In this document: positions 55,490 to 58,036 of the stretch, piece after piece
Layout: each line of letters begins with the position of its first letter
Position numbering within the stretch: position 1 is the first letter of the stretch
DNA from: Bacteroidota bacterium
Lineage (GTDB): Bacteria > Bacteroidota > Bacteroidia > UBA4408
Direction: 5' to 3'
NCBI GenBank assembly: GCA_963169745.1
Contig: CAUJCU010000009.1
Coordinates: 62,001 to 126,000 of the forward strand
DNA: 64,000 nucleotides
Position numbers and translations under genes: made by a program
The notes under the pieces: generated by a model
What the model was told of the DNA's origin: nothing
Database searches by the model: none
What the model saw: the letters and a program-made list of their open reading frames with translations, nothing else

Positions 55490-56398
55490 TCAAGAATTAG
55501 TTAATTTTTGAAAGATATCTTCCAAGCTTAATTCTTGTATTTGCATACTTAAGATTGTATAATTTTGGGAAAGTGCAAATTTCATTATTTCTTGACGGAT
55601 ATCATGTTGTTTTGAAAAACTTAAGTGCCAAGAGTTTCCTGATTTTTTTTGTACTGACAAAACACCAGAAATATTTTGAAGTTCGGCTAAAGTAATTGGG
55701 CGATCGAATTCGACTTTTAAAATAGAATTTTTATTATGGTTAGTTTGAAGTGTGTGCGTATCGCTGTTAGCTACAATTTTACCTTTATTAATGATGGTAA
55801 TATTATCGCAAACGGCTTTAACTTCCTGTAAAATATGTGTTGAGAATAATACTGTTTTTTCTTTTCCCAGCTCTTTAATAAGATTGCGAATTTCGATAAG
55901 TTGATTGGGGTCAAGTCCAGTAGTGGGCTCATCTAATATGAGTACTTGAGGGTTGTGAATTAAGGCCTGAGCCAAACCAACTCGTTGGCGATAACCTTTA
56001 GATAAAGCACCTATCTTTTTTCGTTGTTCTATGGTTAGTCCGGTTAACTCAACCATTTCTTTTACACGGATATCTATATTTTTTATTTTATGAACACCTG
56101 CAACAAATGCTAAATATTCTTTTACATACATATCTAAGTATAAAGGATTGTGCTCTGGTAAATACCCTACATTTTTTTTAACTTCATAACTATTTTCTTG
56201 AACATCAAGTCCGCAAACCTTGGCTACTCCAGAGTTTGGGGGGACAAAGCAGGTCAAAATTTTCATCATTGTTGACTTTCCAGCCCCGTTAGGTCCTAGA
56301 AAGCCGGTAATTGAACCCTTACTCACTGAAAAACTTACTTGATCGAGAGCTTTTTGATGACCGTAAAGTTTACTTATATTGTTAACTTCAATAGACAA
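55490..56398 (-). CDS. gldA: ABC transporter ATP-binding protein, GldA-like
   Basis: A 302-residue cytoplasmic ATPase. Walker A is FLGPNGAGKST (residues ~34-43), signature LSKGYRQRVGLAQAL, Walker B VLILDEPTTGLDPNQ, H-loop LFSTHILQEV. The C-terminal ~80 residues are a diverged extension. This is the GldA type (gliding motility ABC component), whose partners GldF/GldG are normally encoded elsewhere; neither is in this window. An ordinary ABC-2 type exporter ATPase is the alternative. It lies 42 bp after the exosortase-associated gene and is probably co-transcribed with it. Confidence 0.82.
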   Translation of the reverse strand: MSIEVNNISKLYGHQKALDQVSFSVSKGSITGFLGPNGAGKSTMMKILTCFVPPNSGVAKVCGLDVQENSYEVKKNVGYLPEHNPLYLDMYVKEYLAFVAGVHKIKNIDIRVKEMVELTGLTIEQRKKIGALSKGYRQRVGLAQALIHNPQVLILDEPTTGLDPNQLIEIRNLIKELGKEKTVLFSTHILQEVKAVCDNITIINKGKIVANSDTHTLQTNHNKNSILKVEFDRPITLAELQNISGVLSVQKKSGNSWHLSFSKQHDIRQEIMKFALSQNYTILSMQIQELSLEDIFQKLTNS

Positions 56399-56440: not shown

Positions 56441-56926
56441 TTATTGTTGTGATTTAGAGTTCATATTTTCAAGTTTTAAAGCAGGAATAATAATCATAAT
56501 TATAAAGGGAGATTGTAATAGTCCGGTAAGGTTGCGCGTAAACAAATATCCTTTTTCAAAATGGTTTAGTGCCAAGCCCCCAAAATAGGTAAATACGGAT
56601 AGTATTAAAACTATACCATAAGCCCAAAGCACCCACTTAATAGGCTTAAAACTACCAGTAAAAATATAAACCGTAGCTATACTTAATAAAAAATAGAAAA
56701 TTATGAAGGCAGCAGTGAGAATATATTTAAAATAATATAATTTCATATAGGGCCATGAGTTAAAATAGGAGAGCCAAGAAGGAAGGGTGTAGTCGTAGTT
56801 TTTAAAATATAATTTATACAACTGACTATTAATACTCATAAAGGTTGCGTCTCTCAGAAATCCAAGAGCAATAAAAACTACAATTAAGATAAAAATGAAG
56901 ATACTATCTTTTAAACTAAATTTCAT
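56441..56926 (-). CDS. Exosortase F-system-associated membrane protein
   Basis: A 161-residue protein with four predicted membrane spans (residues ~8-25, ~65-90, ~95-115, ~135-152), starting 15 bp after xrtF. The pattern (FLRDATFMSINSQLYKLYF near the start, FEKGYLFTRNLTGLLQSPFIIMI near the end) matches the small protein that regularly accompanies XrtF, known as exosortase F-associated. Its role is unknown; a partner of the transpeptidase is a reasonable guess. Confidence 0.82.
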   Translation of the reverse strand: MKFSLKDSIFIFILIVVFIALGFLRDATFMSINSQLYKLYFKNYDYTLPSWLSYFNSWPYMKLYYFKYILTAAFIIFYFLLSIATVYIFTGSFKPIKWVLWAYGIVLILSVFTYFGGLALNHFEKGYLFTRNLTGLLQSPFIIMIIIPALKLENMNSKSQQ

Positions 56927-56941
56927 AATTAAAAGTAGTTT

Positions 56942-57490
56942 TCAGACCTTAACTTGTGTATTTCTAGTATTGGAAAATTTATTAGCCCATAAGAGCCAAA
57001 GACCAAAAACACAGGCGTAAACCAATATGGTGAAGGTATAGGTATGATTAAAGGCTAAAGTGTTGGGAGCATAATACACAATAAGACAAAGGCTTACAAT
57101 TCTTAGGATGTTAATTATATGAATTAGAATCATACCGGAAGGAATAAACCATAATTTGTTTTTAATACTCCCCGGATAGGCTATAACAAAACCTACAAAA
57201 AGTGCAAAAAGTGTTATTCCATTACAAGGGTCACCTACCCACAAGCCATGAGTGCCATCAACACCAATAACTGTAATATTATCAGTACTAACTGTTTTAT
57301 AGTCAATTGTTCTAAATCCCCCTAAATCTAATACTAATGAACTCCAATAAGCTAAGTTTTCAGAAACAATATTGTCAAGCGTGCTTTTTGGGTGTAACCA
57401 CAAATCGTACAGAATGTACCAAAACAAATAAAGCCCGAAGGCTTTAATGAGAAAAAACAGAATTTTATTTTCTGTCAAATATTTTAACAT
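56942..57490 (-). CDS. xrtF: Exosortase family protein XrtF
   Basis: A 182-residue polytopic inner-membrane transpeptidase-like protein. The three exosortase active-site residues are visible: Cys89 in GDPCNGIT, Arg130 in HIINILRIVSL and His149 in AFNHTYTFT. Exosortases and archaeosortases cut proteins at a C-terminal tripartite signal (motif, hydrophobic segment, basic tail) and probably attach the product to a membrane lipid. The short single-domain form and the adjacent exosortase F-associated gene indicate the Flavobacteriia-type XrtF. The gene before it (15 bp) encodes the likely substrate. Confidence 0.92.
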   Translation of the reverse strand: MLKYLTENKILFFLIKAFGLYLFWYILYDLWLHPKSTLDNIVSENLAYWSSLVLDLGGFRTIDYKTVSTDNITVIGVDGTHGLWVGDPCNGITLFALFVGFVIAYPGSIKNKLWFIPSGMILIHIINILRIVSLCLIVYYAPNTLAFNHTYTFTILVYACVFGLWLLWANKFSNTRNTQVKV

Positions 57491-57505
57491 CAGTAAAACT
57501 ATGCT

Positions 57506-57745
57506 CTAAGCTTCCTTTTTCGAGGATTTAATCAGTTTTCTTCCACCCAAAGCTAGTCCGGCTGCAAATAAAAAACCTATTCCTCCATCAATAGGAATAC
57601 AAGGAGGAGGCCAACAAGGAGGACCACCACCACCTGGAGGCGGGGGAGGACCTACAACTGGAGGACCCGCTGCGAATAAATCGGGGGTGAATATCAATAA
57701 TGCTACTAAGGCAATGCTAAATCCTAAAAGTACTTTCTTTTTCAT
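57506..57745 (-). CDS. Tiny proline/glycine-rich exosortase cargo (PID-CTERM-like)
   Basis: A 79-residue protein made of three parts. A signal peptide (residues 1-25, ending TPDLFA) leads to a mature stretch of about 25 residues almost wholly Pro and Gly (VVGPPPPPGGGGPP) with cysteines C44 and C49. A C-terminal sorting signal follows: the motif PIDGG (51-55), a hydrophobic span (about 56-67) and a Lys-rich tail (RKLIKSSKKEA). That tripartite end is what exosortases recognise; the PID motif resembles what I recall as PID-CTERM. It is encoded directly before xrtF, with its own promoter. After both cleavages only ~25-30 residues remain. Identity and role otherwise unknown. Confidence 0.83.
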   Translation of the reverse strand: MKKKVLLGFSIALVALLIFTPDLFAAGPPVVGPPPPPGGGGPPCWPPPCIPIDGGIGFLFAAGLALGGRKLIKSSKKEA

Positions 57746-57762: not shown

Positions 57763-57795
57763 CAAACATAAAGAAAAAACTTGAATTAAATACAA
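57763..57795 (-). promoter_or_regulatory. Candidate promoter of the exosortase F module
   Basis: Minus-strand -7 box TATGTTTG (57770-57763) matches TAnnTTTG, with TTG (57795-57793) 22 bp upstream as a -33 element. The start codon at 57745 leaves a leader of roughly 12 bases. This is the only candidate in the window with both elements at plausible spacing. Confidence 0.55.
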
Positions 57796-57997: not shown

Positions 57998-58036
57998 AAA
58001 AAAAACTCCATGAGATATTACTCATGGAGTTTTTTT
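57998..58036 (-). terminator. Intrinsic terminator after rplS
   Basis: Stem ACTCCATGAG / CTCATGGAGT with six-base loop, A-run on the left and seven T on the right, 27 bp beyond the rplS stop. Separates rplS from the exosortase module. Confidence 0.92.

Follow-up and report, generated by a model that had tools for sequence, protein, structure and literature searches.

The three-gene unit described here, from a Bacteroidota bacterium of the UBA4408 lineage, is best read as an exosortase X (XrtX)/PID-CTERM operon whose small cargo would be processed by XrtX into a micropeptide accessory to type IX secretion system (T9SS) type A adhesins of the RemA/RemZ kind – a reading to which we assign a probability of about 0.6. 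The accessory role is proposed because PID-CTERM genes are coupled to RemA/RemZ-like genes, with full cassettes in relatives.

The unit lies in a window of 64,000 nucleotides (the whole stretch of DNA that was analysed), on the minus strand, flanked by rplS and gldA, and its three open reading frames are arranged as the initial annotation had described: the cargo gene (57506..57745; a PID-CTERM microprotein of 79 aa) is followed by the exosortase gene (56942..57490; 182 aa) and then by that of a small membrane protein (56441..56926; 161 aa), with intergenic gaps of 15 bp each. The candidate promoter proposed for it, with both −33 and −7 elements, is also present. Its −7 element, TATGTTTG (57763..57770, minus strand), starts 25 nt before the cargo ATG, and a TTG serving as the −33 element lies 22 nt further upstream (about 57795–57793, minus strand); each of the four species in the genus keeps TAnnTTTG between −25 and −29 (the other three at −28 or −29). 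A sigma-70-type promoter scan was uninformative, with 17 promoters against 13.8 expected. Upstream, the rplS transcription terminator (57999..58036, minus strand) had been said to close off the unit on that side, and it is indeed a strong 16-pair hairpin with a T run. Downstream, gldA (55490..56398, minus strand; 446 bits against TIGR03522, cutoff 402.6) begins after a 42-bp gap and is the next gene after the unit in each of the four congeners (relatives' loci L068, L069 and L071), an adjacency kept only within the genus. As no terminator was found in the 42-bp gap region and the gene order is conserved, the transcript may continue into gldA, with which the three genes are thus possibly co-transcribed.

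On model scores, the enzyme fits exosortase X far better than XrtF, the subfamily to which it had been assigned: it reaches 200.1 bits against the NCBIfam exosortase X model (NF046081, cutoff 170) and 96 bits against XrtF (TIGR04128, cutoff 90) – enough to pass, yet a far weaker fit – and the XrtF assignment is accordingly rejected. What survives of the original description is the kind of system, namely an exosortase beside a likely substrate and an associated membrane protein, together with the catalytic residues Cys89, Arg130 and His149, which do not vary across 18 aligned relatives. A classical XrtF system with an F-type companion protein, in favour of which the score above the TIGR04128 cutoff could be cited, is highly improbable given the 200 bits for XrtX, a sorting signal of the PID-CTERM type and a companion that matches only the XrtX-associated family.

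This companion, the third gene product, resembles the XrtX-associated protein below the family cutoff: its residues 9–152 match positions 5–146 of the 147 in NF046082 at 53.1 bits, with a cutoff of 75. It is the sole NCBIfam match, no XrtF-companion match being found there at E ≤ 1, so the earlier identification as the small protein that accompanies XrtF falls away. Its co-occurrence with an exosortase, in contrast, holds up: a search of 248 Bacteroidota genomes recovered the associated protein from five, its gene lying immediately 3′ of XrtX in every one, and the proteins of two of these genomes (G072 and G166) pass the NF046082 cutoff. An AlphaFold2 model (pLDDT 91.5) predicts a mostly helical membrane protein, for whose fold comparison with the PDB found no relative.

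The enzyme–cargo pairing is already catalogued in NCBIfam (NF046081, NF046080 and NF046082). Like that system, the window has three adjacent genes, with enzyme and signal above their cutoffs; unlike it, the associated protein scores below its own. Exosortase systems of the PEP-CTERM/EpsH type combine a tripartite C-terminal signal with a Cys-Arg-His enzyme, both of which recur here, whereas PID in place of PEP, microprotein cargos and a coupling to T9SS adhesins set the window's system apart. Closer in taxonomy is XrtF of Flavobacterium johnsoniae (Fjoh_1448/1449), likewise a Bacteroidota exosortase with a small associated protein, although the XrtF model gives the window's enzyme a far lower score than the XrtX model does; F. 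johnsoniae strains deleted for xrtF or the associated gene form much less biofilm and colonise surfaces far less well, the substrates being unknown (PMC10936215).

The cargo itself consists of a signal peptide-like N-terminus, a Pro/Gly-rich mature part with PPCWPPPC, the PIDGG motif, a hydrophobic span and a basic tail. The complete tripartite sorting signal that had been ascribed to it from sequence logic agrees with a catalogued one: residues 51–73 score 37.1 bits against NF046080 (PID_CTERM; cutoff 26), and CWPPPCIPIDGG is conserved in other genera. With a dN/dS of about 0.07–0.16 across four congeners, the cargo is under purifying selection, and the cargo–exosortase adjacency, whose conservation had been named as a check, is seen again in five of seven genomes from the order and also in other families; for these two reasons, the unit is more than a chance arrangement.

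In the survey of the 248 genomes, XrtX-model matches occur in 78 (32 above cutoff), a count to be taken as an upper bound because low-scoring matches include other exosortase subfamilies; some relatives' enzymes also score low against the model (about 60 bits in G033). PID-CTERM proteins are present in 42 genomes, all 42 of which have an XrtX-model match, compared with 36 of the 206 others (p = 3e-26). They are microproteins throughout Bacteroidota: the 98 measured – a set outside which lies a 995-aa open frame in G166 – span 55–102 aa (median 67), and from predicted signal cleavage to PID there are a median of 14 residues, about what remains after both predicted cuts, with start codons and cleavage sites assigned by a simple rule. 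On these lengths, the idea that PID tags large proteins for sorting was rejected as the general case. A microprotein of regulator size, co-encoded with XrtX at the window's locus, might also be read as a small membrane subunit that is never cut and regulates XrtX rather than serving as its substrate; we consider this very unlikely, as PID-CTERM genes occur in multiple copies, mostly at a distance from XrtX, their products keep a complete sorting signal, and the perfect co-occurrence with XrtX is as expected of substrates.

Some PID genes have features of their own. In those at L039, L040 and L062, the signal-like stretch is preceded in frame by a Cys-rich, zinc-ribbon-like segment at the N-terminus, with uncertain start codons. 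In G029 and G107, two genomes of the same class, PID genes (L059 and L060) share one housekeeping position, between polyprenyl synthetase-like and riboflavin synthase-like genes, without an adhesin neighbour.

The coupling to adhesins emerges from the gene directly upstream of PID. From 123 PID loci taken, 105 were re-read by motif pattern, and 102 have a gene within 1.2 kb upstream; it encodes a T9SS type A tail in 74 of the 102, the pre-tail module of RemA/RemZ in 77 and either of them in 78. The controls – 310 genes in 20 unselected regions of 20 kb each within these genomes, which replaced downstream genes, the loci ending at 1.5 kb – yielded the tail in 9 cases and the module in 1. With the loci used for model building left out, the tail is found in 51 of 79 (p = 5e-34) and the module in 55 of 79 (p = 1e-46), p-values that assume independence between loci, an assumption that related genomes violate; counted per genome, one or more linked loci are present in 34 of 43.

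For the shared pre-tail module, about 280 residues long, the proteins scanned gave no match to a Pfam or NCBIfam family. The module profile does match RemA of F. johnsoniae at 1079–1350 (E = 1e-32) and RemZ at 745–1028 (E = 1e-31; PDB 8gl6/8gl8); in the RemA/RemZ structures, good resolution is confined to the RemZ CTD (PMC10994853). The module's AlphaFold2 model is confident (pLDDT 90), and comparison of this fold with the PDB found nothing. Type A tails exceed the TIGR04183 cutoff of 23 in five of six module proteins tested, with none in that of L198, a locus without PID; the notion that T9SS proteins next to PID lack a signal of their own was rejected, as they end in such tails.

The gene before most PID genes, then, encodes a module homologous to that of the RemA/RemZ adhesins and usually a type A tail, whereas no such gene stands at the window's locus; conversely, we know of no PID partner for RemA/RemZ of F. 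johnsoniae. The module is also found well beyond the system, in 98 of the 248 genomes, many of them without PID or XrtX. The adhesins therefore do not need the system, and strict dependence of the module on XrtX was rejected. In the window's own genome, which has PorU, SprA and GldK as well as six module proteins of about 2300–2800 aa, neither PID gene is beside an adhesin: the window's genus has lost the adhesin from the exosortase locus or moved it.

In relatives, by comparison, the unit begins with a T9SS adhesin gene, which makes its earlier designation as a minimal module misleading. A cassette of adhesin, PID, XrtX and associated protein occurs in G251 (L067/L197) and in a Flavobacteriales MAG (L240), one of adhesin, PID and XrtX in G115 and G033, and L242 has an adhesin, PID and a short XrtX relative. 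The latter (L242:2611–3078), behind the adhesin–PID pair, is only 155 aa long and possibly truncated or frameshifted. At L241, PID, XrtX and associated protein lie beside Wzc-like and sugar-aminotransferase genes (functions read from the sequence by eye), and in G253 XrtX is directly preceded by the gene of a module protein of 1032 aa (L198:1780–4878, minus strand) in which no T9SS tail was recognised, no PID gene being found.

The term minimal is misleading for the window's genome too, as it encodes one more XrtX-like enzyme and one more PID-CTERM microprotein, neither of them near the locus. The enzyme (L006:7360–7947, plus strand; contig C2 at 187 kb) scores 139.8 bits, below the cutoff of 170; its catalytic residues are intact, it adjoins aspartate-semialdehyde dehydrogenase, and it is conserved in the genus. 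The microprotein is 59 aa long and is encoded on C2, 71 kb from the second XrtX. Across seven genomes of the order, XrtX1 is present in all; PID class A (XrtX1-linked, with PPCWPPPC[IV]PIDGG in most) in five; XrtX2 in five, and PID class B, with a PIDGGLSLVxxCAxYGAKKI-like motif, in exactly those five. Albeit from few genomes, this hints at two enzyme–substrate pairs, the substrate of the second XrtX probably being PID class B. Directly upstream of class B in four congeners (L089:9140–10618, L090, L094 and L095) lies a gene for an OafA-like membrane acyltransferase, itself preceded in two of the four by that of a giant T9SS protein.

How the window's unit might work can be drawn in part from established exosortase knowledge, by which Sec would export the 79-aa microprotein, its C-terminal span would keep it in the inner membrane, and XrtX, whose Cys-Arg-His triad would lie at the outer face, would cut near the PID-GG motif and probably join the new C-terminus to an acceptor. 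The cut would release a Pro/Gly-rich peptide of about 25–30 residues with two cysteines (CWPPPC), and the small membrane protein may assist XrtX. From the gene neighbourhood, we infer that the released peptide would help to mature, anchor or present a RemA/RemZ-like T9SS adhesin. Adjacency does not prove contact between microprotein and adhesin, and counting against the accessory role are the missing adjacency in the window's own genome, the module elsewhere without the system, the G253 module protein before an XrtX with no PID found, and the low XrtX-model scores of some relatives' enzymes.

A doubtful but weightier competitor has it that the enzyme–substrate pair is real and the microprotein an independent product – a matrix- or exopolysaccharide-linked peptide, for instance, or a peptide signal – with adhesin adjacency reflecting only that surface genes are regulated together. 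Roughly one PID gene in four has no adhesin gene ahead of it, the L241 unit adjoins sugar-aminotransferase and Wzc-like polysaccharide genes, and exosortases elsewhere go with exopolysaccharide loci (PMC7468200); yet shared regulation sits poorly with a link to one module family within T9SS proteins (77 of 102 loci against 1 of 310 controls) that recurs across several families, PID usually following the adhesin gene directly. The accessory reading, which we prefer, could be extended further, such that XrtX-processed, acceptor-linked micropeptides act in trans as tethers or maturation factors, the CWPPPC of class A forms a disulfide with the adhesin or the gliding track, and each XrtX paralogue serves its own PID class; this whole scheme strikes us as unlikely. 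The cysteine pair of class A recalls the twin cysteines by which F. johnsoniae SprF bonds to GldK (PMC12635249), but most PID proteins outside class A are without such a pair, which is why the disulfide idea is speculative.

No publication on the XrtX/PID-CTERM system, its tiny cargos or the T9SS adhesin link was found in the literature searched; that the cargo is a microprotein, and that it is coupled to T9SS adhesins, thus appears to be undescribed there. Bacteroidota exosortases are needed for biofilm in at least one species, and the present analysis indicates both a concrete substrate class – microproteins leaving about 14 residues – and a concrete client, the T9SS adhesins. Both can be tested in the full cassettes of relatives, and the function of Bacteroidota exosortases thereby becomes testable; the results also suggest cooperation between a sorting system of the inner membrane and the type IX system of the outer membrane.
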